Shown: positions 16,663 through 45,210 of the stretch, piece after piece | Numbering within the stretch: position 1 is the first letter of the stretch | How the letters are laid out: the number at the start of each line of letters is the position of its first letter | Assembly (NCBI GenBank): GCA_018902385.1 | Contig: JABSSW010000004.1 | Coordinates: 1 to 64,000, forward strand | DNA: 64,000 bases | Reading direction: 5' to 3' | Origin: Physcia stellaris | Taxonomy: Eukaryota; Ascomycota; Lecanoromycetes; Caliciales; Physciaceae | Program-made: the position numbers and the translations under genes | The notes under the pieces: generated by a model | What the model was told of the DNA's origin: nothing | Database searches by the model: none | The model's input: the letters and a program-made list of their open reading frames with translations, nothing else

Positions 16663-16670
16663 TTTATATA
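16663..16670 (-). promoter_or_regulatory. TATA box of the secreted-protein gene
   Basis: TATATAAA reads on the minus strand about 140 bases upstream of the ATG at 16521. Similar TATA boxes precede the other secreted-protein genes in this window. Confidence 0.45.
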
Positions 16671-19141: not shown

Positions 19142-19205
19142 AGCAGATCCACACCCTCTCAAGTACAATCACACGGTATCAATCTTGTGCATCACCAGAT
19201 CTTGA

Positions 19206-20016: not shown

Positions 20017-20024
20017 TTCCGAAC

Positions 20025-20405: not shown

Positions 20406-20413
20406 TTCCGAAC

Positions 20414-20836
20414 AAGCCTTGAGATAACGCTAACGACAGCTAACCATCCACTGTGGTATTAAGATCTTAGGTAATTTGCAATCATCGTTGACGACGTCGC
20501 ATATTTGAAAGGTGTGACATCGCCAAGCAGCGCTAGGTTTAGCATTTGGTTGGTGCCAACAGTCTAGTACTCCCGCGTCCCAGCAAACATGTTGCTTTCT
20601 TTCTTTTCATCGCGGCTCATATGTTATTTATATGTTTTGATCTGCTCAAACGTTGACAGTGATGAAAATAGCGACGAAACACTTCTACGAGAGTAACGGA
20701 ACAGTCATGCCGTCTCGATGATAATACGTATCATCAATCTGCGCTAGCTACTAGGTTCAATGTTCAGAATAGCAACGGGATTGATTTGAGAACGGGTCGC
20801 TAGAATGTATCACCGCAACAGTTCCACCAATATGAC
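20414..20836. other. Upstream region of the 20917 gene
   Basis: No gene is seen. It lies between the MITE and a TATA box, so it probably contains the promoter of the secreted-protein gene. The MITE sits about 510 bp upstream of that start codon. Confidence 0.4.
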
Positions 20837-20843
20837 TATATAA
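20837..20843 (+). promoter_or_regulatory. TATA box of the 20917 gene
   Basis: TATATAA lies 74 bases upstream of the chosen ATG. This distance supports the start at 20917 rather than an in-frame ATG at 20890, which would leave a very short leader. Confidence 0.5.
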
Positions 20844-20916
20844 CATCGTCGAGCGCCAGAGATTCTGTCCAACAGCAACCCCCCCACACTTGTTCTCTTT
20901 TCCACAACCACCCACC

Positions 20917-21943: not shown

Positions 21944-22219
21944 TTGTGATGTGGCTCTTTGCTATGATTTGGATGGGCTATAAGTTGGGGAGAGGAGAGG
22001 AGAGGAGGGAAAGGGGGATGGGATGTAAGATCAAAAATAGAATGTATAGTGGGAAGGCGAGATCTTTGACTTTTTCCAAGTAACGCGGATACATCGGACT
22101 GTGACGGCTAGTATCCCGAGCTTTTCAAGAAATTGAACAGCAATGATAGATCTTTGTCCTCGGCCCTTTGCGCCTTTGTCGATAGCTGATTTCTGCTTAA
22201 CATGTGCTGATAAAAACCG

Positions 22220-22620
22220 TTGTGGATTTACCGAAATTTGAGGTCAGATTACGACAGTTTCAGAGCACTCTACTTATCCGCCCGACCGACCACCCGGGTC
22301 TACACTTCTTTTTCTCTCTTCTTCGGCATCCTCCTCATGACCACTGGCCGCGTGATGCTGCTCGCCATCCATAGCTCCTCCACCGCACAGTACGTCCAGC
22401 ATCCATCGCATCGCTATAGGCGCCTTCATCATAGGCCCGATCATCGTCTGCTACTGTGGTGTGATGGCATTGCACGGGCATTTGGAGAGCGTTTCAGGAG
22501 CAGGACGGCGTGGATTATTGGGTTCGTAGGGAGAAGGGTGCGGTGATTGCTATGTTTGCGTTTTTTCTTTTTGTGAAGGATGCCCTCGGGGCAATATGAA
22601 TGGGTGTGCGAATTGCCTTG
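22220..22620 (+). pseudogene. Remnant of a small membrane protein
   Basis: One frame gives FFGILLMTTGRVMLLAIH and then S-S-S-T-A-Q-Y-V. The neighbouring frame continues with IAIGAFIIGPIIVCYCGVMA and L-H-G-H-L-E. The two would join if one base near 22392 were absent, and together would give two or three membrane helices. No in-frame ATG precedes the first helix. It is probably a decayed gene; the family is not recognised. Confidence 0.3.
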
Positions 22621-22883
22621 GTATTATGCTGATGAGAGCTATTGGCGGCGATAATGGATTGGGGAATATCTTAGAGGAGACAGAGAATAGAAGAGTGATG
22701 GGCGTTTCTGAGCTGAAAAGCCCGCCTACTGTACGTTTATTGAGATGGAGAGGGCACAATATTCCTTTATTCGCTGAATAGGCAGTATATGTTATACATA
22801 CAACCCATAGCATGTACACTAGTTTAACGCCTTCGAATGTTTCACTTTCTTAATCTTCTTTGTGTCGCGTCGGCCACCTCAAG

Positions 22884-23874
22884 TTAGGCTCTATAGACCA
22901 CATACAACGCTCCTCCAACTACGGAATATCCACCAGTCCCTTCGCAATCCTTCAGCGGATTGCACTTCGCCACTGCCGCGTCCATCAACAATGTCAATGC
23001 CCTTACACCACCGTTGAAATTCGTCACTTCAGCGAATTCTGTACTTTGCCATGTTGTGATGACGTGACGGGCAGCGAGGGGACCCACAACGGACTCGATC
23101 TTGGCAGCAACGGAGTCTGTATCAAATCCACATCGATTAGCAATAAGCAGCATTGGATCGCTCGGGGATGTGAAACGACCTACAAGGACGAATCTCCTTG
23201 ACATCGAAGCCCAAATCTTGTAGCCCTTGTACCGAGAGGATCTCACGCGCGAAGGGTCCCAGTGCGCCACCGGTGAAGGACTTTGCCTCTCCGGGATTCT
23301 CCTTAAGCCAGTGCTCAATATCGGTAGCTACTTGGAGAAGGCTGAGTTCGCTCGCTTTGTCCTGGGCCAACTCCAGCGCCTTCCCAAGTGTCCCGGGTCC
23401 AGATAGTGCCTTTTGCGTTGCTAGCTTGATGGGTAACGTCGACTGAGCGACGTCAATGGATAAAAGGTCATCACAGTATTGAATCATGGGCTGAAGGTCC
23501 TGGATCTCATGACTCATTTCGTTGTGCAGTTGTACTGTCTGTTGATATTGGTGTAAAACCATCTTCCCGGCTAGTGCTATCTGAATGGATGATGTGTCCT
23601 GGCTGGCCCAGGACAGCAAATCTTCAAGCTCTTGGATTTTGGGCTGGAGGTTTTGGATCATGCTATTCGACTCGGCGTGAGATTGTACCAGTGTTTGATA
23701 CTTGGATCGAAATTCGTTCGCTCTGAGTACTGCGGTCAGAAAGTCAGCTCATCATTTTCGCGATGGTTATATCAAGCAGTTTTTACCAATGATTTCCTTA
23801 TCCTTCTCGGTAAAAACTCCTTCGACTGCATTGAATGCAATTATCACGGGTAGGAATATGGTGAAGAGAAGCAT
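22884..23874 (-). CDS. Secreted helical protein of unknown function (3 exons)
   Basis: Exons 23874-23787, 23729-23184 and 23116-22884 join in phase to 288 residues. The introns are 57 nt (GTAAAA...CCGCAG) and 67 nt (GTAGGT...GATACAG, with a good GCTAAT branch site). Residues 1-20 form a signal peptide (MLLFTIFLPVIIAFNAVEGV). The rest is Gln/Leu/Glu-rich with long helices and two related coiled-coil-like segments (I-Q-N-L-Q-P-K-I-Q-E-L-E-D-L-L and H-E-I-Q-D-L-Q-P-M-I-Q-Y-C-D-D-L-L), suggesting an internal duplication. The C-terminus is richer in Gly, Ala and Val with two Cys. The function is not recognised. It appears intact. Confidence 0.72.
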
Positions 23875-26773
23875 GGCTAACAAAGCTTGTCGTGGGTTTT
23901 TGGCTTAGGATTGACAGTGTTGCTGGCTTGAAGAAATGTTCGTAGCTGCCTACTCTTGTTGAAGAGACTTGCCGATTTAGATCTGGGTGTCCAAGCACTT
24001 TAAGCTAGGGTGGCTCCTGGCCTCATCGGGATCAAGAAGCATGCAAGGTTTACTGTCGGACGCAAGCTGTCTAAACACGCCCAAGGCCCCGGAGAAAAGG
24101 GAAATGATTTACTTTTTCGACCACGATGCATTCAAAATATCCCAGTTGACTCACCGCTCCGTTGTGCCAATCAACCCATATCTTAACAAAGCTACGTATC
24201 AGGGAAGGTCTATATGCTCGTCCCGCCGTGTTCGTCTGTCCGAGGGGCGGGAAGCATATGGTTCCTGTCTCAATGCAAGTTGCCTTCCGAAACAACGAAA
24301 TTCGTTTAGCCGTTCACCGCCATATTACCATTTCAAATCTTTTTTGATTCCACTAGTCAGACACACCATCGATGTAGAAGTTGCTTCAAATGCAATGTGC
24401 GGACTAATTACCAAGCCCTCGTTCATCGGGTGTTTGTCGACCCCGGAACGATAAACCCCTGAAGTTGTTTTTGCCAACTCACTCATGAGGAGGTGCCCTG
24501 AAGATCGTCATTCCCTGCATTTACGGATGAGTGCATGCTAACACGATCTACGTGCAAACGATAGCTGCCGAGCATTTAATGCCTGTATTACAAAAGCTCT
24601 CGGGACTATTCCTCACTACCCAAGCTCGCAGTCCCTTACCGAGGTGGGGCATGTGGCGACGTTGAGCTATTGCTGGTCTTTCCATACGATAACTGGCTCT
24701 ATTCTTGGCAATTGAGTTCTTGGCCCACATGGGAGCTTATTCAAGGAACGTTTGAGAGAGGGTAAGATTATTCTGTGTCTCTTGACTTATTATCCGACGC
24801 TGAGACGATATCCGGAGTAATGCATAAGCATCGTCATATGCCAGGATTTTCTTTGTCTTGAGATGAAGCAGCATCCCATCGGACCTCCTACGGTGGCAGA
24901 TTTCTTTCTATGACTGTAGATCGAACATAGGATAGCGCTGTGAAGATCTTGATGAGATCGAGATTTTGCCTGATGATCGACGATAGTGATGGCCACAAGC
25001 CCGGCAGCGCTCTTCTGAAAGACGGCACTTGTAGCTATCATGGAGGAAACGACCTCTCGAAACATGTCAGACTAATCCTGTTCCTGTGAACCCTTTCGGG
25101 GGCAGGGCTTGCCTACTAGAATCTCTCATGTACCGGCACCATCAAAACCTGTTAGATTCCTGCAGTAAAATCACAGCACAGCCGCGAAGCATCTCGCTCA
25201 ACGCTTACGATAGCAAAGCCGAACGAGCTACACGTAGATGCTAAGAGCTCGACGCTGGCTCTCCAATAGTGGTTAGCGACGCTGTGGTGCGTTCCTTTCG
25301 CCATAGCAAGCGGGGTTTAGTTGCGGGTGTAGAGTGTTTGGCTTCCGGTACATGGATTCAACGAACAAATCCATCCACCATTCCCTGCGTTACGAGTAGC
25401 GGTGACTCAACTAAGGTTCCAGTCCAACACTTTGCTTTGAACGTGCCCTGCTCCGCCCATGATTCGCTTTGGTAGAATCTCATCCTTCGTTTCGGGCTAT
25501 GACTGGGATAGCGCTTTGGGGTCATCATGCCACGAACATAGTTGTCGTTTCGCCCGAGGGTGACTCATCTCGTGGACAGCTTGGAACCGGCCATGCAACA
25601 CCGGTGAGCATATCATTAGCTCTATATAGTTTCTCGAGTAGTTAGGTAATCTAATTATCATACTGTATGTCACGCAAACAACGATTGCAATGGAGCATTT
25701 GAGGAATCAAGAGGATCGTATGGTCGGTTGAAGTGGCCTTCGTAGTCGACTTACTGGTGGCATAGTGTCCGTTATCACCAACGGTTCCCACATGGCCTTA
25801 CGCCATCATCTTCTGCATGTGCCATCATATTCTACCTCTGCCATTATCATCTGCTCACAGAAGCCCTAACGTGAGAAGGTTTCCGACTTATCCGAGAACA
25901 GAAAAAACGATCTTGACAGGTTATTCTTTCTTCAAGCGAGGCTACTCTTTTGAGTGAGCTAGCGAGTCTCGCGCGAGGATGACGATTCTCTAGAGAGTAA
26001 ATTCCTCTGCCGCCTTGCAGCTCTTACTACGGAGGTGACTGGGTGATGGCGCGGGAAGTGTTGCGCCATGGGGTATTAAATCTCCGATGGATTCTACGTA
26101 CCTGGACATTCTATCTGCGAGAACACATTTGTGAGCGCTATAGTGGAGAATTGAGCGACGCACTCGAGTGTCAACGCTGGGACTTGGGATGTGGATATCA
26201 TGCCTGATCTCGGGCCGGATGGGAGGGCGACATGGGATTGGAGCCCGATGTTTATTATAGCGCCCGAAATATTGACGCTCTGAGATGGGTGGGAACGGAG
26301 CGCAGGGTGGAGGGAAGCTGGGGGAACGATTCCGCTTGACGATGGCTGCGGAACCCCAACTCGAATGTATAAAATATGACAAATGTGCGCTCAGGACAGC
26401 CAGCAGTGGTTCTTTCCAAAACACTCTGATAAGTAAAAGGCCTTGACGCTGTGTACCGGAGGAGAAGCTATTGGGAATAGAATGGAGTATGAGAATTTGT
26501 ACAATCTCGATTTTGTATTGCGTTTCGGGAACATGATATGAAAGAATTTCCGCTTTTTGATCGACTGCGTCCTTCGAAGACCAGAGTTCGAGTCGGCTTC
26601 CCTACACCTCGTCAATATCCGATATGTATGCCCGGCTCAAGGAAGCCCTCGATCACAGGCTACTGGCAAGGTGTACTCTGGCCTCCGAAGCGCAGTTGAT
26701 GGTATTAAGCCCGTTTTCGCTCGTCTCGTGAATGTTAATTCCAAAATACTGCCTTCCACACGTCCCCATACTT
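23875..26773. other. 2.9-kb stretch without a supported gene
   Basis: Both strands hold only short overlapping open frames. A T-arm-like string (GAGTTCGAGTC near 26585) lacks the rest of a tRNA. No repeats or conserved domains are recognised. Confidence 0.45.
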
Positions 26774-27046
26774 TTATTGCCCCTGCATCCTCTTCTCCTT
26801 GACCACGGCGATCGCAGCGATTTCCTCGGACAGCTGCTTCAGGCGTTCCTTTATTGCAAGCCCTGCTTTCAGGGACGTGTCGTGGGATCCTTCGGCGTCG
26901 TTCGTTGGTAAGCCCACCGCCCTCATGCTGGTGGTCATAATGCTCGAGACTTCGGCGTAGAGCCGTTCGCCGTGTTCGTTCAACTCTTCCTCGGAGAGTT
27001 TTTCGTAGTATTCGGGGCTTGTGGTGGGGTTGCTTGACTGGGCCAT
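26774..27046 (-). CDS. Small hypothetical protein (90 aa)
   Basis: A single exon with ATG at 27046 preceded by a pyrimidine-rich leader (CTCCACCTCCTCC, typical of fungal 5' leaders). The protein is hydrophilic, charged and predicted helical (E-Y-Y-E-K-L-S-E-E-E-L near the start, I-K-E-R-L-K-Q-L-S-E-E-I near the end). It has no signal peptide or membrane segment. Codon use looks like real coding sequence and it lies only ~240 bp from an AT-rich block. The family is not recognised. Confidence 0.62.
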   Translation of the reverse strand: MAQSSNPTTSPEYYEKLSEEELNEHGERLYAEVSSIMTTSMRAVGLPTNDAEGSHDTSLKAGLAIKERLKQLSEEIAAIAVVKEKRMQGQ

Positions 27047-27284
27047 CGTGATGGAGGCGGGAGAGGAATTGAAGCTGGAGGAGGTGGAGGGAGGAATGAA
27101 TCAACTGATGTAGTCGTACTTTTGAATTGTTATGGGTGGTGAAGAATGTGCTTGTCGGATTCTAAGGTATGCAGGACGCGTGCACGAGTGTTTACATGCT
27201 CGCCTTGGCGCGCTATCAAGTGACATCATTTCTTGACAATTCGCAGCGTTTTGTCGATTTCGAAACGCTTGCGAATGTTTGACT

Positions 27285-30200
27285 TTTTTTTTTTTTCTCA
27301 ACTATTTCGTTTTTCAGAATTTGTCATTCATTTTGTTAACACGTTATTTGAAATCTGATTGTTATAATCATTGCAACAACAATCGATCATATCGACATTT
27401 CTGTATATTGATTTTTTGATGTTGCAATCATGATGTATCGCAAAATCGATTTCGAAATCAAATTCATTTCGTTGACGTTGTTTGACGTTCATTGAAAATC
27501 AAACATCATTGCGATCAAAAACATTGTTATCGTTCAACAATTTATCGATGAAAAAATCGTCAAAAAATGTATAAAAAATTTCATTTATTAATTCGATTCA
27601 TTTCGAATCGATCGCGTATTTTGACGATTTACATCAAAAATATAATGATCGAATTTAGAAAACAACGTTTTTGAACATATCACGACGAATTGAAAATCTT
27701 TTTGAACGAAAAATGAAAAATCAAAATTAATGTTTTTACGATTTGTAAAACATTGAAAAAAAAAACATAAATCGAAAAAAACAACGATTTTCGAACAAAC
27801 AAAATGATTAATTGCGCGTTGCATGACAAACAAATATGTTCGATTTCATCGCGAAACAATTGATTGTTATCGACGAAACTATATTCAAAACACAAACGAA
27901 TTGACGATGCATGACGTATGAATTTATCGACGAAAAAATACGATAAAATGAAAATATTCGAAAAAATGACGTTTACAACGTTTTGTTCGCATACATTATT
28001 GAAAATTATTTATTTTGTACGAATATTCGTCAAAATTATTTTAACAACGAAACGTTTTTTGAATGAATAATCAACGCGTTGTTATTTTATTGCAACGTTT
28101 ATTTTGTTTTTCGAAACGTTATTGTCATGAACAACGTCAACATTCACATCAAAATTCGAATTCGAAAAATCATTGAAATCAAAAATTGTTTGATCAAATA
28201 TTTTTTTATATTTATTTGATTTCAATTCAATAAATTGATTTTCGATTTGTTAAAAATTTAAATGCGACGACATTGACGCGATTTACGAAATCAATTTCAA
28301 AACGATTTTGCGATTTTTTTGCAATATGTCGTGAAATTCAACGAATGTGATCAACATGCGAATGCACATTTCAAATACAACATGAAAAAATATAAAAATT
28401 ATCGATTTGAAAACGATTACGAAATTTTTCAACGAAAATTTGATGTTTGAACGAAATTGAAAAATTAATTTTTTGTATTTAGCGAAAATATAATCAATAT
28501 TACATACAAATCAAACGTTATTTTCTGACATTGTTGAAAACATTGATTGACATCAAAAATGTATAACAAAAACGATTGTATGATTAAATTAATAATTGCA
28601 AAATTAATTATTTTACAAATTTTTGTTTATATAATCAATCAATTTGTTCAATCGTACACACATTTCGAAATTTATTCGAAAATATAAATTTGTTGAATTC
28701 AATCGAAAATTTGATGTTGACGTGATCAAATTGATTTTTTCGATAATCGAATTGCTTGATATAATTTTATCGAAATTCGATTCGCAATGTTTTGTTGATT
28801 TGAATTTTGAATGTTTTACAAACGAAAATATTTGAAATAATTTTGACGTTAATCGAATTCGAATTTATACAAATTTTTGATGTTGAAATTTTAATGAATT
28901 TTGATCATTTTATTGATCAAAAAATATCGAATCGTGAAACGATTATTTTATTTACAGATTTTTTAATTATCATTCAACAAAATCAACAAAAACGATTTCA
29001 AAATCATTTTTCGAATTTCGACATTTTTCGCATCATGTATTGATTCGAAAATTTCGAATTCGAACGATTCAAAATTCGTTTATTTGTCAAAAAAAACGTC
29101 TATTTTGTATGTTAAATCAATCAATTTTTTCGATATCATCATCAAAAAATTGAAAAAAAAAATCATTTGAATTTGAAAAAAAATCGTTATTTTTTCGTTG
29201 AATTCGTTTTTTTTTTTTTCGTATTGTTTCGCGTCATAACGATTTGTATTTTCTGAAATTTTCGTCGAATCGATTGATATGATTTAACGAAATGTTTTGA
29301 TTTAAAATTCAAATTTGCATTCGCGAATTTTCAATGAAAATTTTTTGATATTAACAATCGATAAATTCGTTTCATCGAAAAAATGTTTGATTTTGATTAA
29401 TCGATTGCGATTTTTTGCAAATTTTTTTTTGAAAAATTTTCAACGTCAATAATTTTCAATGATTTTTTTTTTTCGTCATCGATTTCAATTGAATTAAATT
29501 TTCGTTGAGAAATCGATTCAACAATCGTTTGAAAAAACAATGACGAAATCATTTGTTAAATCATTTGCGAAATCAATTGTTGAAAAATTTGTGAAAACGA
29601 ATAAATCACGAAAATTGAAAATTTTTCAAAATACGATTGAAATTAATACGAAAACGTTTGCATAAAATATGAATAATCGTTATATTGAAAAAAAAATTGA
29701 TTATACATTTGCGAAACATATTGAAAAAAAATCTGTACAAATGAATTGAATTTTCGAAATTCGATTTTTGTAATAATTTCATCGCGAAAACGATTTTCAC
29801 GAATCATTCGTCGATTTTCGATTTTTTTTTTCGACGTTGAACGTTTTTTTTTCGTTGATAATTTCGTTTTCGTCGTTTTTTTTTTTTTTGTCGTTTTCGT
29901 TTTTTATTTAATTTGTTGATTACAACGAAAAAAATTTTTGATTTCGTATCGACAAAATTTTGATATTTTTTCATGTGATCAAACATCAAAAAAAAAAATT
30001 GTAAAAACGTCGTTTTTATCGTTTGAAATAACATTCGTTCAAATTTTTAAATGATTGAAAATGAATTTGTAATAATTATTATTTTTTTTATAACAAAATT
30101 CGTTTATATTGTTGCACACATTATTGACGCAAAAATAATTATTAATTAATTTCGCATGATAATCGTCAATTTTTTCGCGTTGTTTATTACGAATTGTGGT

Positions 30201-31731
30201 GATCGTTTCGAATTGAATTGTTTTGATTTGACGAAATTTTTGAACGTCAACGATCGTGAATGTAACGATTGCATTCAACGTTGAATCAACAAAATTTTCA
30301 CATCGAACGTTGATTTTCAATTCGTAATTTGAATTTCGTTTTCACAAATCGATTAACGCGATTTTCATTACGATTCAATTTTCGACGAAAAAATCAAATA
30401 ATGTAAAACGAATAATCGAAACGTTGTGACAATTTGTTTTGATTGTAATTGCAATTTTCGTGAAATCGATAATTTCAAAAATCGTTTTGACGTTTTTTAT
30501 TTGAAATTCGAATGTTTCAACGTTGAAACGATTTTTAATTCAATTATCGTGCATATTATTTTCAAAAAAACTGTTTATTGAATTAATTCATTTGATTTTT
30601 GCGTTGATTTTTGTGTAATAAATTCGTAAAAAAATTTTGAATTTGAAAAAATATTGTTCACGTGTTCAAATCACGTAATTATCAATTTCGTTGTCGACGT
30701 TGAATTCAATTTTCATGACATTTTCTTTTGCAAAAATAAATCGAAAATTTATAAAATTAAACGTTGTTTTTTGAACGACGTTTTGTTGTGTATTTGCAAC
30801 ATTTTGCGTACGATTTAATGTTACACGTTGACGCACGTCGTTAAAATTTCAAATTTGATGTATAAATTTCGAAAAAAACGTTTTTTGTATTTGAATTGAT
30901 CTTTCAATTCGACGAATTGATTTTTTGTCAATTTTTCGAATCGACGTGTAAAAATTGACGTACGAAAATTGTGACGAATTGATTTTGATACATTTCGAAT
31001 TTGATTCGATTGAAATGTATCGAATAAAACAAATTGATTCGATTCAATTTTCGAATGTCGTGATGTTTGCGACGATTGATCAAATTCAATTGATTGATTT
31101 TTTGAATCGATTGATTCACGTATAAAAAATCGATTTCAATTCATTGTTTTGTCGTTTGTAAAATTTCGATAAATCAATGAATTCGAAACAATTTCATCAA
31201 AATGCGATTCGAATGTGCGAAAACGATCATCGAATGAAAAATCATCAAAAAAAGCACGAAAAACGATTTGTACAGAAACTCGTTCGAAAACTTGTTCAAA
31301 AATTTGTTCAAAAACAGTAAAATTGATTTGAATTTTCAACAAATGAGTTTCGTTGATTAATCGTTTCTCAAGTCGTTCATTTGTTTTTCGAGCAATTTTC
31401 TTGTTGACGATTTTGATTGCAATCGTTTTACGAACAACGATTTGTTTTTTGACGTTAAACATGTCGAAAAACTGATAGCACGAAAAATTGTAAAATGCAA
31501 ATGCGTTTTTTTTGATATTTGATAAATATTTTTCGATTTGAATCTGAAACGAAAATGAAACGAAAATGAAAAATCGATTCTCAAATGACGTGTTAACAAA
31601 ATGAATGACAAATTCTGAAAAACGAAATAATTGAAAAAAAAAAAAGTCAAACATTCGTAAACGTTTCGAAATCGACAATTTGTATCAAATATTTGATATT
31701 TTCTCATTCATTTCTATTGAACATAAAATAT
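27285..31731. mobile_element. AT-rich block 2, left part: heavily mutated unidentified repeat
   Basis: CC, CT, AG and GG are almost absent. In 28021-28140 I count 16 C: seven before A, nine before G, none before C or T. No LTR or inverted-repeat pair was found for this segment. Its right edge coincides with the copia insertion and its left edge is sharp near 27285. It contains decayed minus-strand coding sequence (see 30039-31678). It is probably an old transposon or repeat of unknown class. Confidence 0.55.
30039..31678 (-). pseudogene. Decayed coding region of an unidentified repeat protein
   Basis: The minus-strand frame 31678-31136 gives a 180-residue stretch rich in Ser, Phe, Lys and Glu (for example R-K-T-N-E-R-L-E-K-R-L-I-N-E-T). 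Downstream, 30320-30039 contains a Cys-patterned segment (C-V-N-N-V-C-N-N-I-N-E-F-C-Y) that may be a zinc-binding region. No Pro, Gly or Trp remain in either stretch. No known transposase or reverse transcriptase motif is seen. Confidence 0.4.
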
Positions 31732-31876
31732 TGTCAAATTGCATGAAGTCGTAAATCATTGATTGCATGATGTTTTATGAAATGTTAATTTACATAATTT
31801 TTAACATTTAATGTCATTGAAATGCGCATTAATTATTAAGTTTTTAACGATTTCTGATTGATCATTTAATTTTACA
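31732..31876. repeat. Left (3') LTR of the copia element, fully mutated
   Basis: 145 bp. It differs from the right LTR at about 26 positions by hand alignment. Twenty-one are C-to-T or G-to-A in this copy, nearly all in CC, CT, AG or GG context. Confidence 0.85.
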
Positions 31877-34758
31877 CATTTTTTAAAAAAAAATATCTGA
31901 TATTTCGTTTTATTTTTGATGTTTTATTCATTTTTTAATGCGATTTATGATGCGATTTATTCGATTTCTGATTGATCGAATTCGTTGTATTTTTCGATTT
32001 TGATATCGAAATAAATTTTAAATCAATCAGTTTCACGAATGTTTTTTGCTTTTGAAATGATAAAATTTTGATGAAATCGTCGATCAAAATGTTCGTTGTA
32101 AAAATTCATTGAATGTTGATCGTGCTTTTTGCATTTTTCTAACGAAGTCAATGACGATGTATATCGACATAACGTAATTTAATGATTAATTTGATCGTTG
32201 ACATAATAAACGTTCGTATAATTTGACGATTATCGCATTGAATGTGAATGAATTTTTTCATGTTCATTTGTATTGATTCAAAAAAACGATTTTATCACAT
32301 TTTGATGTTGATCGTCATTGACATGATCAACAATTCGATTTCGATGAAATTCGTGATGATTGTTTTTTGTTTTGTGATTTTTCAATCAATGAAATCGTCG
32401 AAAAGCATGAAACAATATTCATTTAAATTTTGACGAATATTTAAATCGTTTGCGAATAACGCATTTGACGAAATTAAAAAAATGATAATTGTATAATTTG
32501 TTTGATTTTTGTAAACAATGACGTAATATTTGATGTGTGTTAAATATTTTAACGTTCGAATCGTTTGTTTCGCATGATGTTTAAATGAATTCGTAAAATA
32601 TTTTGATAATAACGAGATTGCAACGATTACATTTGATCAAATTGTTGTTGCAACGAAATTGATTGATTCGATTTTCTGTTAATATATATGAATTTTTTGA
32701 AAAATAACATTATTTTCATTTTTTATCATCGAAATATGAATGAATATAAATGATTTTGATTTTTTTTTATCATATCAATGTTGAATTTGTTGATGAATTT
32801 GTCGATATAATTGTTTTGACAAAACGACGTTGTTTGTTGCTTTTTATCGCGTGTAATGCGAATATTGAAAAATCATTCGATTTCATCGATGTTTTTCATT
32901 TCATATGTTTCGAAAAGTTTGTTTTCGAAAACGTCGACTTGTTTGAAATATTGAAAATAATACATGATTGTTATGTCGTTCACGAAAAAAATAAAATCAT
33001 GTAATCATTGATGAATAAACATTCGATGTCGAATATTTGTTTCAAATTTAAATTGTTAAAAATAATCGACAAATGTCGATATCATAATATTGAAAATTGT
33101 TTCAAATCATATAATGTTTTCGATAAAAAAAATAACACATTGTTTGTTTTTTTCAATCGTCAAACGATTTACAATAAATTAATTCGTTTATATCATTATT
33201 GACGAATGCATTGACGACGTCATATTAACGTATGTTAAAATCGAAAATTGTGATTATGATTATTAATGTTCGAAAAATTTTAATAATTAATATAATTGCG
33301 TAAACATTTTGCTCGATTTGTTGAAAATTTTTCGAACACACAATCGAATTTTGTGTTTTATCAAATATTTTTCGTTGTCGAATTTGTATTTGAATATTCA
33401 TATGATAAATATAGAAGTTTTTTTTGCTTGTTTGACATGATTTCATGAAAATTTTTTTTCAAATTTGTTTTGATTATAATGTTTTAATTTTCACGTTAAT
33501 AATTCGTAAAAAATCGACGATTTCAAAATGTTTGAACATTTAATGATAAAAACGTGATTCGACGAAAAAATCGTCACGATGCGATTTTTTTTTTGTCATT
33601 GAAATCATGAATGTTTCATAAAATAAACGCATTTTTTTTGTGAACGCATTTTTTAAAACGATAAAATGATTGAAATTTCGAAACGAATTTGATTTGCGAA
33701 TGCGAATGAATTTTTCAAATTGAATATTGATTTCGTCAATCGTTGTTTTCGTTCAATGTTTCGATTTTTTTTTTTCAACGACGATGCAAACGAAAATAAT
33801 TTCTTTATTGTTTTTGCAACGACAAATGACGAGAAATTTTCTGTAACAACAAATGACGAAAAATCAAACGTATTTGACGTGTTTTTTCATTTCTTGACGA
33901 AAATGAAACAAATGAAAATAAATATTTTGATTCAAAATCGTTTTCAGTTGTTTGTTTATGAGATTTTTTTGCATCGCGATCGATAATAAATTTTGTAAAT
34001 GTTAATTTTCATACATTTTCGTCGTTGTTTGATTCGATGTTCATTATTTTCGTGAAATCGCTTTGCGATATGTCAAACGTATCGTTAATCAAAAAAAATT
34101 CGTTGACGAACTGAATTAAATTTATTTCGTTAAAACGATAACGTAAATTTTCGTTGAATGTGACATCACGTGTACGTATAATTTTTCGTTGATTAAAAAT
34201 TCAAATTAAAAAAATGTTGATGTTGTCATATTTTACAAAAAAATCGATGTGTGTTTTGATTTTCATTTTTTTTTTTTTCGAAATATTTTTATTCAAAAAA
34301 TATGTTTTTGTTTCATATTGAACGATGTGAACAAAATTCGACTTTTTGTCGATAATCATTTCGAACGATGTTTTTCATTCATGTTTTTTGAAAAATGTAC
34401 GATTCATTATGTAATCAGCGATTTCATTGATTCACGATTATAAATAAACAAATAAATTTGTTTCGAATTTTATTGTTCGTGATTTGATCAACAATATGTC
34501 ATTTAATCGTTCGTTGTGATCGTTTTGTGTTGAAATATCAACGATCGAAAATTCAAATGTAATGTTTTTGAATGCGCAATAATTATTTCATTGAATGTTT
34601 AACGCACGTTCGTCGTCAAAACGTACAAATACGATTTTGTCGTTGTATTTGATTTCGATTGTATGAATAATTCGAATAAACATTTTCGTGATTTGTTTTT
34701 TGTTTTCGTGCGTGTATATCATGTGAAAATCTGTTTCGAAACATGTTATATACGATAT

Positions 34759-35406
34759 TTATTTGTGTTTGTTCAAAATCGTTGTTATATCGATAAAATC
34801 GTAAATAATTCGATAAAACGATTTGTTCGAAATTTTTGATTTTTCAAAAAATTTGAATACGATTTTATGTGTTTTGAAAAATGCACATTTTTCGTATTTG
34901 TTAATTAAAAACATTTTATTTTTGTTAATAAATTTCATTTTTTCAATTGTTTTTTGCAAATGTTATATTGCGTCATTGTTAACATAAACGAAAAATTGAT
35001 ATCATTTTAAAATAAATTTTTGTCGCACAATGATTGCAAAAATGTTCATTTTTTCAAATTTATTATTTTCGAAAACGTAATGTGTTTTTATTCGTGACAC
35101 GTAAACGATCGATGTATCGTTTTTGTGTAAATGTTTATGAATTGTATCAAAATACAATTTTTTGTTTGCGAAAATGTTTTTCGCGACGATGTTTATCATG
35201 AAATCAAATACGTAATTGACATTTAAAAATTTCATTGATTTTTTTTTTGTAAATGTATCGACGTTGATACGCATTCGATCATATGTTAAAATAAAAAATA
35301 ATTTTATGTCGAACATAATTTTCGATTCGTTTGTGCAATTTCGTTTTTTTTGAAAACGTTGTTTTATCGTGTTGTTAATCACGTGAATGTCGAAATCGTA
35401 ATTCAT
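34759..35406 (-). pseudogene. Copia pol fragment: protease to integrase N-terminus
   Basis: Two neighbouring minus-strand frames carry the copia signature of a YVxDF...NIV segment followed by F-D-T-I-H and Y-V-F-E, then a C-x-F-x-K-x-H zinc/integrase start and an F-Y-R-I-I-Y-D-F-I-D stretch. All Pro, Gly and Trp expected there are missing, which fits loss of CCN and GGN codons by the mutation process. A further open stretch upstream, 36045-35638, probably belongs to gag but has no clear motif. Confidence 0.68.
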
Positions 35407-36727
35407 AAATCATGACGAACGAAATAAATAATTTGACGAAAACGAATCGTTTGTAAACGATTTTATGACATTGACGTGAATGACGACGAAGAATTTTATT
35501 TCGATTTTTGTATTTTTGTTATTATCGTTTTTTTTTTTTTGACGTTTTTCGTCAATTCGTTTGATATTTTGTTTTATTTGTTTTTTCTTTTTTGAATTTT
35601 TTTTTTGTTTCGTTTATTTTAATCACGATTTCTGATTTTAGTTTGAAATCATCTGAACGTATATTCTCGTTGAAATAGAAACAATCGTCGTAAAAATGTT
35701 TTTTTTCGCAAATGCAAAAATTTCGAAATTGATTTTGATTTCGAAATGACGAAATGTCAAAAAAATTTCGATAATTTGTGTGTTTGCATTCGTCAATTGC
35801 GAATGTCGAATTAAATATCGTTTTTTTTTTTTTCGAATTTTTTTCAAGCGCATGTGATGACGAAAAATTTCGATAAAAATGAAAAATTGTGTTTCGTGAT
35901 TCGTCACGTTGTTTTGTTGAAATAAATATATTTCAGCGAAAATAAATGTCGTTTTGTCGATTGTTTGTAAAAAATCACGATACGTTCGTTTGCTATCGAT
36001 AATTTCAGCAATTTTCGTCTGCTTAGCGAAAATCAACATCTTCAAATAATCGTTTATTCAAACATCGATGTTCTGACGATTCGATGATTTTTTGATCAAA
36101 CGATTGTATTTTTGTTTCAATTTCAAACTTTTAGTCGAATCGATGAATGCAAAACGTGCTTTGAAAACACGTAAAACGATTCATGAATGAATTTCAACAT
36201 TTTGAATAAAATTGAAATTTGTAATCGTTGTTGTATTATAAATGTGATCGATTATCTTTGTCATGAAATTTTTTTGTTTTTTTCAATTTTGAAGCTTTTT
36301 CTTGTATTTCGACAACGCGATTTTGTATCGAACATGCTTTTCGATGAAATTCACATTTTGTTGTGTGTCAAAATTGAATTTTACGAATTCAAATTTGTTC
36401 GTTGATCGAATATTTTTGAATGAATTTATGAAATTTCAAATCGAATATTTTGTGATTTTGATTCGTACGATCGAAAATCACGCGTTTCAATTTTTGAAAA
36501 ATTCAATTTGAATTTTCGCTTCGTATTCGTCATCGTGTTGAACGAGCGAATAAATAAAAAAAAATTTTTGATTGTTGTTGATTGTAAAAAAGTGTAAACA
36601 CAAAAATGTTTTCGCGATGTTTTGATTTTTCGTGTTAGTTTGTCGAAACAATCGAATGTTGAAAATATTGATAATCAAATAAATCACGTATTGAATGCAA
36701 CAATTAAACGTGATTCGAATTCATAAT

Positions 36728-36872
36728 TGTTAAATTGCATGAAATCGTAAATCATTGATTGCATGTTGTTTTATCAAATGCTAATTTACATGGTTTCTAG
36801 TATTTAATGTCATTGAAGTGCGCACTAGTTACTAAGCTCTTGGCGACCTCTGATTGGCCACCTAGTTCTACA
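36728..36872. repeat. Right (5') LTR of the copia element, distal half unmutated
   Basis: 145 bp. From about 36780 onward it keeps CT, GG, AG and CC (for example GGCGACCTCTGATTGGCC). The mutated zone therefore ends inside this LTR, about 90 bp before unique DNA. Confidence 0.85.
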
Positions 36873-37464
36873 GATATTTCTATTGAATGCTGTACAGTGC
36901 ATATACCCAAGAAGGCCTACCATTCGAGTCCGCTCTCTTACTGATCCCAGGTTTTGTCACCATTGAAGCTGGGCAAAACGCGATCACACTTTGCTCTGGG
37001 TAGCTTCGCTCGATCAAGTGCCACCACACCATCAATAGCACCGGTGTAAAAGCATGGCGTTTACGGCTGCAGCCGTGGGCTCTCCAGTACGCTTCCCTCA
37101 CTCTATCCATCAATCCTCATTTGCCAGTGGTCCCCAATTGCGCGATGTGCCTCGCGCAGCCTTGCGGCCTTACATGCTGCCCAGCGCAACCCTCCAGTTT
37201 GGACACTGCTTGATCATGGAAGATTGCAACTCCCCCAGCATTGGAAAGGGTGGTGACAAGTTCCTATCTCAGCCTCGTTCAAGGAAGCTCTTGAATGCAG
37301 AATCTCTTTCACACTTCCTTCACTCTTGCAGAATCTTGTATTGAGCATAAGCATATTAGTTTCATCAAGGCTATCAATTCTTTTGGGGACGTGATATTTG
37401 GATGGTTCTCATTCCACGATCCCCACATCGGATGGGAACACGGGCTTGAGCCACGCACAGAAAG
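36873..37464 (+). other. Leader region between the copia element and the 37465 gene
   Basis: GC-balanced sequence with no supported gene. A 96-codon open frame (37054-37344) lacks recognisable features. The sequence probably contains the promoter of the downstream membrane-protein gene. Confidence 0.4.
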
Positions 37465-39379
37465 ATGAAGCGGCTCAGGCGAAATCTTCTGATCCTTGCG
37501 ATACTGGCCGATAATAGTACCACTGTTAATGCTGGTGTGTCAAACTACCTTAAGTGTGCGAAGAATGCCACCATGATCGAAATGCCGAACAGCTCGATCC
37601 TGCTCGATCACAACGGTGAGCCTACGAATAGTCGAGCTACAGCTTGGGGAATTAGCTATCAATTGTGTATGGAGCTCTGTACAGGCCCAGCCAAAATCGA
37701 TATTCACGGATCCGACTACCTCACTCAACATATGACTTCCTGGGTTCTCCCCTGGCTTGCATTAACCGCACAGCTACCTTACTCAACCAGTAACAAACGC
37801 AGCAATATCATGGCTCTCTTCTTAGCGTTAGGAAGTCCAGCACTTATGGTCTACACTCTGGCCTTGACAGTCACTAATTCTCGAACAATTCGTCGCAAGT
37901 TCAAGAAGTGCTTGAGAAAATGTAAAGAGCTGAACCTTCCAGGACTAGCGGAGGCAGTCGACTCGGCGCAGACTATCATGGCTGATTCTCAGCACATCCC
38001 AATCCAGGCATACCAAGGCCCGCAAAGGGTCTTTTCTCAGCTTGTTGTGTGTCCAGACACCTGGATATGGTGGACAATCCTCAAAGACGAAATGTGCGTT
38101 ACGAGGAAGACATGGGATTTCTCTCTTTTTGCTAATGTCGCTTTCGTCTGCATCGCCCAAACCTTAGCTGTGTTCGATTTTTTACTTCAACAACCGGTAC
38201 TTCCAACATTGGGATTGGCTTAGCTATCAACAGTCTCTGGATTTGGATGGTACCTGTGGTCTTTGTGGGGTCGGTACTGGGGATGCGAACCACTACACGA
38301 CCAATCAGTGCGGCAGTTGGTCGCATCTCCAACCCAGTACTGGGCGGAGAGACTGGTGGTAATGAAGCTATTAACGGCATCAGAGATAGAGCGACGTCCA
38401 CGGGTGAGCTGCAGGTCTGGCCAAATGCCTCTCATGACCTTGAAAGCCAAGGAAACAGTCCTCCTGGACCTGATCAGCAACTGAATCCACTGTCGACTAC
38501 CTTCTTTGGGTTTAGTGCCGCTGGATGTGATACAGAAAGAGGGACAATATTCAATTATGCCCGCGCTTGGAGCCACATGCATGTGACCGAGCACGTTGTG
38601 CATTCGTTCGAGCGTCTCGTCGCAAATCAAGAGCACCGACGCACTGTCAGTGGCCGGAAATGGGTGAATTCAAGTCAGAGATGGAAGGAAAACCTCGAAG
38701 GTTCGCCAGCAGATAAATGCAGATATGTTTCTTCCACAGGACAAGATCAACCAAGCATTTCGACTCAAGCGTCAGCTTCTCCTGAGCTGCTCCAAAATTT
38801 CATAATCGCAGCTTTGATTTCCATGATTACCCAATGGGGCACGACAGGTGCCGCAATAGTCATCGCATACAAGTAAGCCAATCCCATCCCTCATCACACG
38901 CTCTGTCTTACATCCTTAGTACCCCAGTGGTAGGCCTCGGCTGCCAATCCGGAAGTTACCTCGTATATGGACTTGCTGCCACGCAGATATGGCTCATTCT
39001 ACTCCTAGCAGCTTTCCTCTCGCATCGTCACTCACTCCTCATGGAGAGAAGTCCACCTTTTACTCGAGCGCAACGATATCGAAGCAATGTTTTCGCGGCT
39101 GTAGCAATCTGCACCCGCCTTGTAGGCAAAGTTCTCGCAGTAGCTAACGCACTCTTCCTCGTTGCCACTTCAGTTTTGCAATTCACAGGCTTATATGACA
39201 CATGTTGGTGCAACGCTTGCATTCCCAGTCTTGGGCGTCTGAAAGGCTGGGTAATTCTTTTCGCAACCGACAGTGAGATCAGTACTGCGAGTAGCACCTC
39301 GTGGTGGGGTGGTACGGCATTGAGCGCTGTCTCGGCAGGATTTGCCACGGGTCTCCTTTTGTGGATACGGACAAGGTGA
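37465..39379 (+). pseudogene. Conserved fungal polytopic membrane protein, frameshifted
   Basis: The ATG at 37465 opens a signal/anchor segment, paired Cys (Y-Q-L-C-M-E-L-C) and the W-V-L-P-W-L-A-L-T-A-Q-L-P motif known from a widespread uncharacterised Pezizomycotina membrane-protein family. After F-D-F at a run of six T (38178-38183) the family reading continues in the next frame (T-S-N-I-G-I-G-L-A then S-L-W-I-W-M-V-P-V-V), through 38872. A 47-nt intron (GTAAGC...CTTAG, 38873-38919) then joins to N-T-P-V-V-G-L-G-C and further helices ending at 39379. As it stands, the product stops at residue 252. A T-run length change is the simplest cause. It could be a sequencing error. About 600 residues and 8-10 helices would be expected for the family. 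Confidence 0.7.
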
Positions 39380-40857
39380 GCAATTGGGTTAGCTAACACT
39401 GGGTAGATTTTGGGCAGATAGGAAATTCTTTGCCAGATAGATGCAATGCATCAATCAGCAAGATCACCACACAAAACCCAACCAGTAGCTGTGATTCGCC
39501 ACCTCTACTCGCAAGCTGACAAGGTCTTGGCCTGACTAGACGACGAGTATTAAAACACTCGGGCTGCATCCGAATCTGTCTGATAAGTCTACATTACTGA
39601 AATTAGAGACACGATGCGTGGCGTGAATGTGCACAAGCTTCGAAACCTCACTGCTAATCATTACGGTCTTCCGAGCAACACTGACTTGACTTTTGTAATC
39701 ATTAGCTTAATCTGCAGAAACAATGGTCCAGGCGCAATTCGGTTATTCAGGAACTGGGAATAGCTTGTGAAGCTACAGTGATCTGTGGAGACGACAGAAT
39801 ACCTTGGACCAACTTGAACAAGGTTTGAAATACCTTGGTGGCGATGGGTTGACTTTGGGTTCTGCACTGGTGGCTCTGAATTATATCTTGGTCGTTTTCG
39901 TCTGATCCTCGGGAAAAATTCTCGCTTGTACTAGTCTTCCCCATAACGGCTTCGTGGGTATAATATCCGATTGTATTTCCTACATCCAAGCCGTGTACAC
40001 TGCATTCGCTAGCCGCGATCTTGTAAAGGACGACTTACAAGGGATAAGAATCATAGACGCCAGATTCCAGTCTACTCTTTGACTTTCACAAGATTATACG
40101 GAGAGAAGGATCATCGCTTATAGCGGTAGTGGCGTCGATCAAACCAGCCGCCTGGCCTTTTCCGGAATCCCATCGTCCTGTCAGTCCAGATCGGGCAACC
40201 AGGAACGATAGCGTCCTCGTATTGAGTTTTTCGATCGTCGCGGAATATATTTGAGGGTTTCACCGATTCCAGAAATCTGCGGAGACAAGAGTTCCGTGGT
40301 GCGCTTCGGTATGAAGGTTCCGATGGGGGCCGAATCTGGAGTTGTGGCTGAAGCGCGATTGCCGCTGAACTGCCTCAGAGTTCTACAGTTCTAGTGCTTT
40401 GGGGCAAAGTGGAAACTTGAAACTGCCTTAATTCCACCATGGGTTATGGGAGTGCATTATTGTATAGCTCTATTCTATGGAGAGAAAGCTGACTCCCTTG
40501 CAGAGCACAATACGAGAGATGGCACTGACCAGGAGATTTTAGAGATAGATGTGAAGTAATCCCACAGGAAAGAGTCGCTTTATGATCTTTCTGGTTCAAA
40601 AAGGTTCTCTAAGATCGGATTTCTGCGAACATGACATACACATGTTATCTGCGTTACAGACCTTCGATTTGGGGGGTCGTCTCAGCTACTCGCTTCGAAG
40701 TACGCCACCCTATTGTCCCTAGGACAGTTTCAGTCTCTTGTCGATGAACCTACCATGAACAAAACTATGACAGCGATCTGCTGGTCGCTTATACCACTGG
40801 GGGCCAAAAGAACCGAACGACATCATCGAGCGAGCTCCATGAACTAGGCACGAACAA
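39380..40857. other. 1.5-kb intergenic stretch, nothing recognised
   Basis: Only short open frames without coding character. The right end probably holds the promoter of the 41037 gene. Confidence 0.45.
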
Positions 40858-40864
40858 TATAAAA
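40858..40864 (+). promoter_or_regulatory. TATA box of the 41037 gene
   Basis: TATAAAA lies 26 bases before an in-frame ATG (40890) and 173 bases before the ATG at 41037. Transcription normally starts 30 or more bases past a TATA box, so the first ATG would be at or before the transcript start. This favours 41037. Confidence 0.5.
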
Positions 40865-41036
40865 GCAGAGACTTCCGTGTTTTTGAATCATGACGTCCCC
40901 CAACTACGAGTTACCAGAGCTGAGGCAAACGGGATCCAGCGTCTTCATTCTCCTGACAGTTAAGTCTTCCCTATTTCGCCCTATTTCACTGCTTCCTCGG
41001 ACCTCGAATCACAACACAGATCTTACAACATCCAAC

Positions 41037-42047
41037 ATGGCCGCAGCTGTTGCCATCGATGTCATCGGTGTCGTCTCGGGCGTACTTGGTATCTTCCAGT
41101 TCGCCCAAGATCAGATGCCAAGCCACACGGCCAATCCCGCCGACAGCTCCTCCCTCCGTGTCCATCTCGGCGGTGGTGCCAAGACCGTTCCCAACGCCGG
41201 CGGTAGCCTCGGGGCCATCAAAGTCTACAATGAGGAACAGACTCTCATCGGCGCCGGCTCTGGTGACGGGCCTATTCCTATGGGTAGCTTCCAGGACATC
41301 ACCATCACCCATGGCTACGGCCCTGGCCAACAGCCCACATACGTGCAGATCAGCGGCACCGATGACGCCGTATGCATCGCATATCTAATCCAGACATGGC
41401 CCGATGGTACCCAAAGAGGCTGGCTGGGGGACATGGGCCAGGCATGCGGTACCACCTGGGGTTATTCAAACGTCATTGTCGGCACCGACCACAAGCCTAC
41501 CTGTACCTGGCTCGACCAGGATCACACGGGAATTCTAAGCGGCAGCATGCAGATCCACATGCAGGATTTTACCAATTTGACCACAGACTACAGCACCGAT
41601 CCCGGGCACTACTGCGCCTGGCCGGCCATGTATTTCGAGCCCAGGACCGAGGATACCGGCTTGCCTGACAATCAAATTTGGGGCGCTCCTGCGCCTAGTA
41701 CGACGGCAACAGCAGCGACGACAACCCAGACGACTTCTCCGGCCAAGCGCGCCCAGGCGTACAAACGAGGACTGCGGAAGCGCTCGGCGAAATTGGCCAG
41801 CACCATTGTGGGCAGCCATGATGAAGCCCACAGCGCGATCAAGCTCTGTTCCTCGGAGACGTCGCATGGTTCGGACTTTGTCTCTTTCGCGGAGGGCGTG
41901 TTCTGTGATATGGAGACGAAAACTGCCTGGCCGTTGTGTGAAAAGAGTGTGAAGGGTGAGTGCTATGACTGGGAGAGGCATGCGCTGGTTGAGAAGGGCG
42001 GAAAGACGACGAAGAAAGGGTACAGTGATGTGCAAAGGTGGGAATAG
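41037..42047 (+). CDS. Conserved hypothetical fungal protein (336 aa), single exon
   Basis: The frame is open from 40890, but the ATG at 41037 (context TCCAACATGG) is preferred. It gives the hydrophobic start seen in this family (V-A-I-D-V-I-G-V-V-S-G-V-L-G-I-F-Q-F) and fits the TATA position. Residues ~35-210 form a domain with conserved-looking N-A-G-G, D-A-V-C-I-A-Y, W-P-D-G, W-L-G-D-M-G-Q-x-C-G and K-P-x-C-T-W-L-D motifs, common in secreted or surface hypothetical proteins of ascomycetes. A Thr/Ala-rich linker and a basic segment with K-R and R-K-R sites follow, then a Cys-containing C-terminal part (C-S-S-E-T...F-C-D-M...L-C-E-K...G-E-C-Y-D-W). Function unknown. It appears intact. Confidence 0.75.
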   Translation: MAAAVAIDVIGVVSGVLGIFQFAQDQMPSHTANPADSSSLRVHLGGGAKTVPNAGGSLGAIKVYNEEQTLIGAGSGDGPIPMGSFQDITITHGYGPGQQPTYVQISGTDDAVCIAYLIQTWPDGTQRGWLGDMGQACGTTWGYSNVIVGTDHKPTCTWLDQDHTGILSGSMQIHMQDFTNLTTDYSTDPGHYCAWPAMYFEPRTEDTGLPDNQIWGAPAPSTTATAATTTQTTSPAKRAQAYKRGLRKRSAKLASTIVGSHDEAHSAIKLCSSETSHGSDFVSFAEGVFCDMETKTAWPLCEKSVKGECYDWERHALVEKGGKTTKKGYSDVQRWE

Positions 42048-45138: not shown

Positions 45139-45204
45139 GGCTATTGTGCTCTATTCGACTCTCCTTGTAAGGAAATACAAAGAAACAGGAGGATTCGGGG
45201 ACTC

Positions 45205-45210
45205 TTTATA
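45205..45210 (-). promoter_or_regulatory. TATA box of the five-exon secreted gene
   Basis: TATAAA on the minus strand, 67 bases before the ATG at 45138. It lies about 380 bp from the end of the AT-rich element. Confidence 0.5.

Follow-up and report, generated by a model that had tools for sequence, protein, structure and literature searches.

The AT-rich DNA of this lichen-forming Lecanoromycete very probably records a RIP-type defence in which cytosine is converted to thymine on both strands, at CpC first and then at CpT, with CpA and CpG almost spared. The context order CpC > CpT >> CpA > CpG is seen directly in alignments of retroelement copies. The same signature marks three blocks of the window (the whole stretch of 64,000 nucleotides analysed here), which alternate with gene blocks that lack it. 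The blocks are as follows; no strand is assigned to them.

1..14740: AT-rich block A1, signature as in A2 with CpT loss less complete, GC 28.7%
14741..27284: gene block, signature absent (internal control), GC 49.6%, CC odds 0.94, CT 1.02
27285..36780: AT-rich block A2, CpC/CpT>TpC/TpT nearly saturated on both strands, GC 25.3%
36781..45609: gene block, signature absent (internal control), GC 49.0%, CC odds 0.90, CT 1.07
45610..53140: AT-rich block A3, signature as in A2, GC 26.2%, inverted ends 45620-45771 / 52989-53141
53141..64000: gene block, signature absent (internal control), GC 49.1%, CC odds 0.94, CT 1.10

The dinucleotide counts in A2 are CC 0, GG 1, CT 58, AG 38, CG 558, and CA 464. 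In 500 mononucleotide shuffles of the block the means were CC 123, CT 438, GG 183, and AG 451, and the minima were 89, 393, 149, and 409, respectively. The corresponding counts are CC 14, GG 7, CT 292, AG 274, CG 849, and CA 1027 in A1, and CC 3, GG 1, CT 93, AG 55, CG 417, and CA 458 in A3. When expressed as C/(C+T) on the two strands of A2, the values are 0.463/0.574 before A and 0.435/0.546 before G, and 0.000/0.001 before C and 0.028/0.024 before T; in the gene blocks the ratio lies between 0.435 and 0.594 whatever the 3' neighbour. TpA/ApT is 0.39-0.42 and the CpG odds are 2.8-3.7 in the AT-rich blocks of the window. Tandem arrays are also present in these blocks.

An earlier note on this DNA had counted 16 C in 28021-28140 (7 CpA and 9 CpG), which is exact. 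Its general claim that CpA and CpG are spared and that CpC is practically gone holds for the blocks, but CpT is strongly reduced rather than absent, and remains at 0.38 of expectation in A1.

A single CpC/CpT rule suffices to reproduce the composition of the AT-rich blocks. Applied in simulation to the gene blocks of the window, it gave a GC content of 25.5%, TpA odds of 0.41, and CG odds of 3.08, compared with 25.3%, 0.41, and 3.71 observed in A2, where the CA odds are 1.31. The lowest GC content attainable under the pure CpY rule is 24.6%. One might consider that the RIP is of the ordinary CpA-led kind and that the make-up of the elements produces the CpC/CpT pattern, because RID/Masc1-class genes and transposon-rich AT blocks are present as in other RIP fungi. 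However, a simulated CpA rule gave TA 1.79, CA 0.00, and GC 0.354, which is unlike A2, and the canonical published CpA-based index thresholds flagged none of the 438 analysis windows with GC < 35%. CpA>TpA is not the dominant change (142 of 2156 CpA sites in the alignments below), nor is TpA/ApT raised. The chance that this explanation is correct is negligible; simulation and family alignment together rule out both canonical CpA RIP and CpA+CpT RIP.

Two apparent elements, a transposase relic, and a dispersed repeat were recognised in or at the borders of A2 (strand given where assigned):

27251..31678: apparent element whose ends are inverted terminal repeats (27251-27375 / 31556-31678)
27857..28201, + strand: weak DDE_3 transposase relic with two TGA and one TAA (PF13358, E 7.2e-5, below the curated cut-off)
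28548..28820: short dispersed repeat; at least 40 other places match it at 81-94% identity (44 matches listed, with 40 out of 292 candidates scored)
31730..36879: apparent element whose ends are direct terminal repeats (31730-31883 / 36726-36879)

The direct repeats differ at 28 positions (14 CpT, 6 CpC, 4 CpA, and 4 transversions). The right outer repeat is nearly unmutated, and the difference between left and right lies mainly at CpC and CpT. As had been described, the signature runs through 27285-36780, except that the terminal repeat at 36726-36879 shows little effect in its outer part. The inverted ends in A2 have nine mismatches (CpT 2, CpA 2, CpG 1, and transversions 4), and the mismatches of the repeat pairs in A1 and A3 are scattered over CpA, CpT, CpG, some CpC, and transversions. 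Repeat pairs in saturated blocks say little about context: what they show is the residue after exhaustion of CpC and CpT, and they lend no support to the rule.

The main test was an alignment of an intact retroelement (L035), taken as the reference, with six mutated copies; its family consists of a single intact copy plus 23 other matches at 63-75%. The changed sites are CpC>TpC at 2113 of 2169, CpT>TpT at 1957 of 2275, CpA>TpA at 142 of 2156, and CpG>TpG at 70 of 2000, CpG being the best preserved context. CpA>TpA, which the earlier note had named as a main change that would contradict it, is a minor one. A small CpA share does exist, with 55 of 370 CAC and 41 of 542 CAT sites changed, and it weighs against the explanation preferred here. 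CpC was mutated ahead of CpT. CpC and CpT exceed CpA and CpG in the other diverged pairs compared as well: L051/L054 (both ways), L036-L051, L036-L054, L049-L057, L040-L057, and L049-L040.

C>T-type changes account for 4282 of the 4518 substitutions in this set, the others being 148 reverse transitions and 88 transversions. This spectrum rules out general AT pressure and an assembly or sequencing artefact, to which the tandem arrays within the blocks might point: the context is sharp, only 236 other substitutions stand against 4282, and the adjoining gene blocks are normal. We give such an origin next to no credence.

Both strands are affected, as the earlier note had claimed; this holds in the composition of the blocks, in the alignments of the L035 set, and in strand counts for each copy. 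For example, in L043 343 of 378 CpY sites are changed on the + strand and 474 of 531 on the - strand, and all six copies are alike. An APOBEC-type cytidine deaminase acting on retroelement cDNA or on exposed single strands would account for the sharp context of the C>T-type changes, but it is highly improbable. Its marks would be one affected strand and a 5'-neighbour context; here the strands are equally affected, the base 5' of the target cytosine has little influence, and DNA transposons are mutated too, CpC being gone from 18 of 23 DDE_3 cores. Strand-asymmetric patches are likewise unsupported, a CC/GG strand imbalance being found in five of 23 partly mutated windows versus 32 of 101 intact ones. 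A search for the APOBEC_N domain yielded no match in this genome or in any control genome, and is hence uninformative.

The copy L056 differs from L035 at 396 of 397 CpC, 407 of 417 CpT, 26 of 389 CpA, and 14 of 370 CpG sites. Its 41 other changes over 7-3092, about 1.3%, comprise 25 reverse transitions and 16 transversions. Near-complete loss of CpC and CpT against so few other changes bears on the possibility that 5-methylcytosine, placed at CpC/CpT by a methyltransferase of heterochromatin (DIM-2, for example), deaminates slowly and spontaneously and that repeats trigger no burst. A DIM-2-like gene is present in the genome, and the identities within the L036 family, which grade from 81% to 69%, would fit slow decay too. 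However, a rate estimated at one hundredfold or more over background would be needed, and the changes spare CpG, where methylation is usually found. Slow deamination is accordingly considered unlikely, although less so than the other alternatives.

The signature is confirmed as real and recurs across the genome. Among 87 loci picked by repeat or transposon matches, a non-random sample, 70 have GC < 35%, and two of these (L005 and L084) overlap the window. In 69 of the 70, C/(C+T) before C and T is less than half of the value before A and G. The sole exception is L023, where the ratio is 0.25 when C follows and 0.14 when T follows. AT-rich blocks elsewhere with abundant CpC and CpT, which would have spoken against the earlier note, were not encountered: the two are abundant together in none of the 70 loci, L023 being a partial exception. 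Transposon copies carry the signature and the gene blocks of the window do not. Yet within this repeat-biased sample some repeats are unmutated or little mutated: five of the 23 DDE_3 cores retain CpC at 0.26 or more, while 18 have no CpC at all, and L036 and L037, a long duplication 95% identical over 3.4 kb, lack the signature. The process either spared L036/L037 or has yet to act there.

The rule also leaves its mark on reading frames. The stops in 150 reverse-transcriptase matches are 250 TGA, 33 TAA, and 3 TAG. The excess of TGA is explained by TGG>TGA being the sole stop made by the CpC/CpT rule; the TAA stops (33 of 286) are not a direct product of the rule and count against the RIP-type explanation. 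What the rule leaves are reading frames that stay open but lack Gly, Pro, and Trp, and gene finders may report them as real proteins. One such fragment has 30 relatives in a protein collection (29 ENA and 1 JGI); in these metagenome-assembly relatives Gly is absent in 28 of 30 and Pro in 28 of 30, which further argues against an artefact. Three Gly-free metagenome fragments match this genome at just 70-72% over their length; therefore the trait is probably shared by other genomes.

The likeness to RIP in Neurospora crassa and the Pezizomycotina lies in C>T change on both strands, mutated transposon copies, genes of the window without the signature, and the presence of RID-class and DIM-2-like genes. 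In the broad sense of the term, C:G to T:A dominance (4282/4518), effects on both strands, and a RID/Masc1-class gene are all found here. In N. crassa the preference runs CpA>CpT>CpG>CpC (PMC5496416), which bears out the contrast drawn by the earlier note with CpA-led RIP, and CpC is likewise the last RIP context in Trichoderma reesei (PMC5496416). CpT as a RIP target has been reported before in other fungi: CpT is the predominant RIP signature in Magnaporthe oryzae and Botrytis cinerea T4 (PMC4352252), CpT>TpT dominates the alignments of RIP-capable control genomes in the RIPper study (PMC7882544), and CpT exceeds CpA in Neurospora Tad1 (PMC2621366). In these cases, and in Sclerotinia, CpT is a major target, as here. 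However, the CpT-leaning genomes of PMC4352252 show CpA signatures too, with CpC unmentioned in the passages compared, whereas in the present genome CpC is the foremost target and few CpA sites change. A CpC-first, CpA-sparing RIP was not found in a limited search of the literature, including passages of PMC5555474 and PMC7493409; within that search, CpC first together with CpA spared is the new part.

RIP-like mutation in Basidiomycota, at TpCpG in Microbotryum and at CpG in Rhizoctonia (PMC4352252, PMC4014442), resembles the present case in C>T change in repeats and a non-CpA context, but it targets CpG, which is the best preserved context here (70/2000). Among lichen fungi with reported RIP, Cladonia rangiformis shares with the present genome two GC classes, sharp borders between genes and transposons, and RID and DIM-2 homologues, but its repeats peak at about 16% GC (PMC12542154), lower than the minimum of 24.6% that a CpY-only rule allows. 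In the repeats of Endocarpon pusillum, for which RIP is reported, TpA/ApT is 1.47 (PMC3897900), in contrast to 0.39-0.42 here.

A search for RID and DIM-2 homologues found a DIM-2-like gene and two class-I (RID/Masc1-type) methyltransferases, L001 and L003, both of which group with RID/DmtA-type proteins. L001 has EET at motif VI and, in the tree, falls towards DmtA with a long stem; L003 has EQT at motif VI and is RID-type. The target-recognition part of both lies in a second exon.

The RIP-type process preferred here would turn cytosine into thymine in repeated DNA on both strands, choosing CpC first and CpT next and almost sparing CpA and CpG. Repetition would be its trigger, as the transposon content suggests, and by analogy with RIP it may act in bursts during the sexual cycle. 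One of the two class-I methyltransferases might set the unusual context; the cause proposed in the earlier note, a RID- or DIM-2-type enzyme whose context has changed, may thus hold. More tentatively, RIP target choice may have been reversed in one lichen lineage via a second class-I methyltransferase, L001 beside L003, with L001 or the pair reading the 3' pyrimidine and preferring CpC; we rate this at somewhat under an even chance. If it is true, TGG>TGA would be the only direct stop, long Gly- and Pro-free frames would survive, and the genome would appear RIP-negative by CpA-based indices.

To our knowledge, how the RIP machinery selects cytosines is unsettled. Because CpA and CpG are spared and CpC and CpT are changed, the usual detection indices miss the signature, and surveys using TpA/ApT and CpA indices would call such DNA RIP-free. 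The reversed order of preference, together with two class-I enzymes in one genome, would offer a natural contrast for finding the reader of the 3' base.

The window covers the initial 64 kb of contig C4 in a genome assembly of 44.0 Mb and 147 contigs. GC content is 25-29% in its three AT-rich blocks versus 49-50% in the intervening gene blocks. In the second AT-rich block (27285-36780), the dinucleotides CC, GG, CT, and AG occur 0, 1, 58, and 38 times, compared with means of 123, 183, 438, and 451, respectively, expected from 500 shuffles; CG and CA occur 558 and 464 times. On both strands of this block, C/(C+T) is close to one half when A or G follows but does not exceed 0.001 when C follows or 0.03 when T follows; in the gene blocks of the window it is 0.435-0.594 whatever the 3' base. 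The C residues of 28021-28140 had been counted by 3' neighbour in an earlier note, and a recount agrees exactly. At the block edges in the window, counts of CpY (C followed by C or T) change within about 50-100 bases. A G-rich repeated stretch with GGGGGAGC motifs (14740-14900), in which CpC and GpG are undepleted, begins at the end of the first AT-rich block.

The second AT-rich block looks like two elements. The features of the second and third blocks are as follows.

27251-31678, unstranded: element with inverted ends, within the second block
27857-28201: weak DDE_3 relic, below the curated cut-off, inside the 27251-31678 element
31730-36879, unstranded: element with direct terminal repeats, second block
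45620-53141, unstranded: inverted ends, third block

The direct terminal repeats differ by 28 mismatches: 20 are of C/T type at CpC or CpT, 4 are at CpA, and 4 are transversions. Among the DDE_3 locus cores of the genome, C/(C+T) before C is 0.00 in 18 of 23, and the other five (L066, L069, L072, L079, and L085) retain values of 0.26-0.43. The first AT-rich block also carries tandem arrays (7259-9255 and 11854-12883) with units of 22 and about 183 bases, the 183-base unit being present in two distinct arrays. In an unmutated block, an F-box-like protein gene, slightly below the Pfam cut-off, lies at 55288-56706 (+), and a gene for a DUF1295/ERG4-like membrane protein at 58593-59468 (+). The top matches of the latter are metagenome proteins (94% and 77%); the sole organism-named match among 14 is from Heterodermia aff. 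obscurata, at 61% and covering 63% of the query. The source is likely a Lecanoromycete that forms lichens and is close to Physciaceae.

Of 527 candidate reverse-transcriptase matches in the genome, 150 were scored, and 30 of these were taken as loci. The intact-looking retroelement L035 (GC 51%) was taken as the pre-mutation state for comparison with six copies sharing 71-74% identity with it (L042, L043, L044, L047, L056, and L059). This polarity is supported by the change classes, because C>T-type changes number 4282 and reverse transitions only 148; transversions number 88. The pooled changes, which are non-independent because the copies have a common history, are 2113/2169 for CpC>TpC, 1957/2275 for CpT>TpT, 142/2156 for CpA>TpA, and 70/2000 for CpG>TpG. 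L056 alone gives 396/397, 407/417, 26/389, and 14/370, respectively. In three other pairs of loci, the changed fractions at CpC, CpT, CpA, and CpG are 0.77, 0.60, 0.19, and 0.19 (L049 to L057), 0.60, 0.48, 0.23, and 0.22 (L036 to L051), and 0.68, 0.60, 0.22, and 0.21 (L036 to L054), the same context ranking despite greater background divergence.

The L035 family consists of one copy at 100% (L035 itself) and 23 other matches at 63-75%. In the L036 family, two copies look intact and the others are graded from 81% to 69% among the 44 matches listed (40 of 254 candidates scored). The long, intact-looking copies L036 (G000:C5:1166521) and L037 (C12:60312) are 95% identical and differ by 0.02-0.05 in every context. 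Therefore, with no context marked between them, this long duplication is unhit.

In the L035 set, 96-99% of CpC sites and 81-89% of CpT sites are changed with any 5' neighbour, and the CpT rate is 85-87% irrespective of the second downstream base. The CpA change depends weakly on that base (CAC 55/370, CAT 41/542, CAA 33/717, CAG 13/525). The order of attack was examined in 844 windows of 400 bp, drawn from the window and from every locus but L005, with L004 and L084 overlapping other entries, and sorted by remaining CpC. CpT lags CpC: a CpC value of 0.071 is accompanied by 0.244 for CpT, and 0.000 by 0.058, while the ratio stays at 0.518-0.596 before A and 0.424-0.480 before G. Since CpT loss trails CpC loss in the sorted windows, CpC is the first target and CpT comes after.

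When the measured context rates were applied to the gene blocks of the window, the simulated GC was 0.255, with odds of 0.05 (CC), 0.21 (CT), 1.41 (CA), 3.08 (CG), 0.41 (TA), 1.39 (TC), and 1.32 (TT). The observed values in the second AT-rich block are GC 0.253 and odds of 0.00, 0.11, 1.31, 3.71, 0.41, 1.43, and 1.34, respectively. A single CpY rule explains the AT-rich blocks; at full CpY conversion, the simulated GC floor is 0.246. Because the measured rates alone yield a TA of 0.41, the low TpA is a by-product. A CpA rule applied to the same gene blocks was rejected, giving GC 0.354 and TA 1.79 versus the observed 0.253 and 0.41.

In three stop-to-stop frames of L035, the full CpY rule creates 25 TGG>TGA stops and no other kind, and a CpA rule creates TGG>TAG (25), CAG>TAG (30), and CAA>TAA (22). 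The stops observed in the 150 scored reverse-transcriptase matches are 250 TGA, 33 TAA, and 3 TAG, with 10 matches stop-free; the 33 TAA are no direct product of the CpY rule. A 237-aa open frame in the first AT-rich block, 890-1603 (-), whose translation lacks Gly, Pro, and Trp and matches nothing in Pfam, appears to be a side effect of the mutation rule and not a gene.

Total loss of Gly (GGN) and Pro (CCN) requires CpC hits on both strands, and is therefore a protein-level mark of the rule; the L035 frames contain 6-8% Gly and 3-7% Pro. With a Gly- and Pro-free fragment of locus L054 as query, 30 proteins (29 ENA, 1 JGI) were obtained, Gly being 0 in 28 of 30 and Pro 0 in 28 of 30, in a search that favours such matches because the query has the same make-up. 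Three of the 30 were compared with this genome, with best full-length matches of 72% (P0145), 72% (P0141), and 70% (P0136) and shorter parts up to 80%. Because the full-length matches here reach only 70-72%, these three proteins are probably from other genomes; P0145 and P0141 are without Gly and Pro, and P0136 is without Gly and has two Pro. The ENA metagenome protein P0138 (423 aa) has 1 Gly and 24 Pro, as if a single strand had been mutated; a search of this genome for one-strand patches of this kind gave none above background.

The C5-methyltransferase domain has four matches in the genome, representing three genes. The DIM-2-like L002 matches PDB 9bap and 9baq (DNA (cytosine-5-)-methyltransferase, 1456 residues, E 2e-181), which we take to be Neurospora DIM-2. 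The class-I genes L001 and L003 are 39% identical, and one of these two methyltransferases shares 72% identity with a protein of Heterodermia (Physciaceae, Caliciales, Lecanoromycetes). In a class-I tree of 50 rows (L001, L003, and 48 picked by the authors from 120 listed hits), L003 groups with proteins of Usnea and Alectoria, and L001 with proteins of Heterodermia and of metagenomes, on a stem of 0.97. The L001 clade is nested in a larger group, supported at 98/97 and without a resolved inner order, that includes DmtA-type proteins of Aspergillus and Histoplasma. The tree program gave a long-branch warning. Motif VI, with a pattern that missed some rows, is EQT in L003; L001 has EET, as do those DmtA-type rows in which the motif was located. 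The labels RID, Masc1, and DmtA are taken from hit protein names and passages of PMC4352252.

According to passages of the literature, the order in N. crassa is CpA>CpT>CpG>CpC, with CpC last in T. reesei too (PMC5496416), and change in rDNA is CpA-led (PMC5555474, PMC7493409). Over ten genomes, the text seen of PMC4352252 describes CpA, CpT, and CpG signatures, CpT predominating in two and being tied to a RID motif, with CpC unmentioned. The RIPCAL paper (PMC2621366), in the parts seen, lists CpC>TpC among four possible forms, and reports dominant CpA with some CpC depletion in S. nodorum and CpT exceeding CpA in Neurospora Tad1. The 59-genome survey of PMC7882544 is based on TpA/ApT and CpA indices; in the text seen, the word Lecanoromycetes is absent and CpT>TpT is the dominant form in RIP-capable control alignments. 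RIP is reported in two lichens (PMC12542154, PMC3897900), with neither CpC nor CpT in the text examined. The Rhizoctonia process is termed CpG-biased, yet CpC tops the CpN classes in a table of the same paper (PMC4014442, seen in part). This limited search, which is less than a full survey, yielded no description of a process led by CpC and sparing CpA.

At the canonical RIP index thresholds given in PMC7882544, 500-bp windows score positive here in 1 of 646 cases overall, and in 0 of the 438 with GC under 35%. The process works like RIP in the broad sense, most testable broad features of which are found here, but differs from canonical RIP in its dinucleotide choice. It is probably a variant of RIP, the apparently new part of which is the lead of CpC together with the sparing of CpA.
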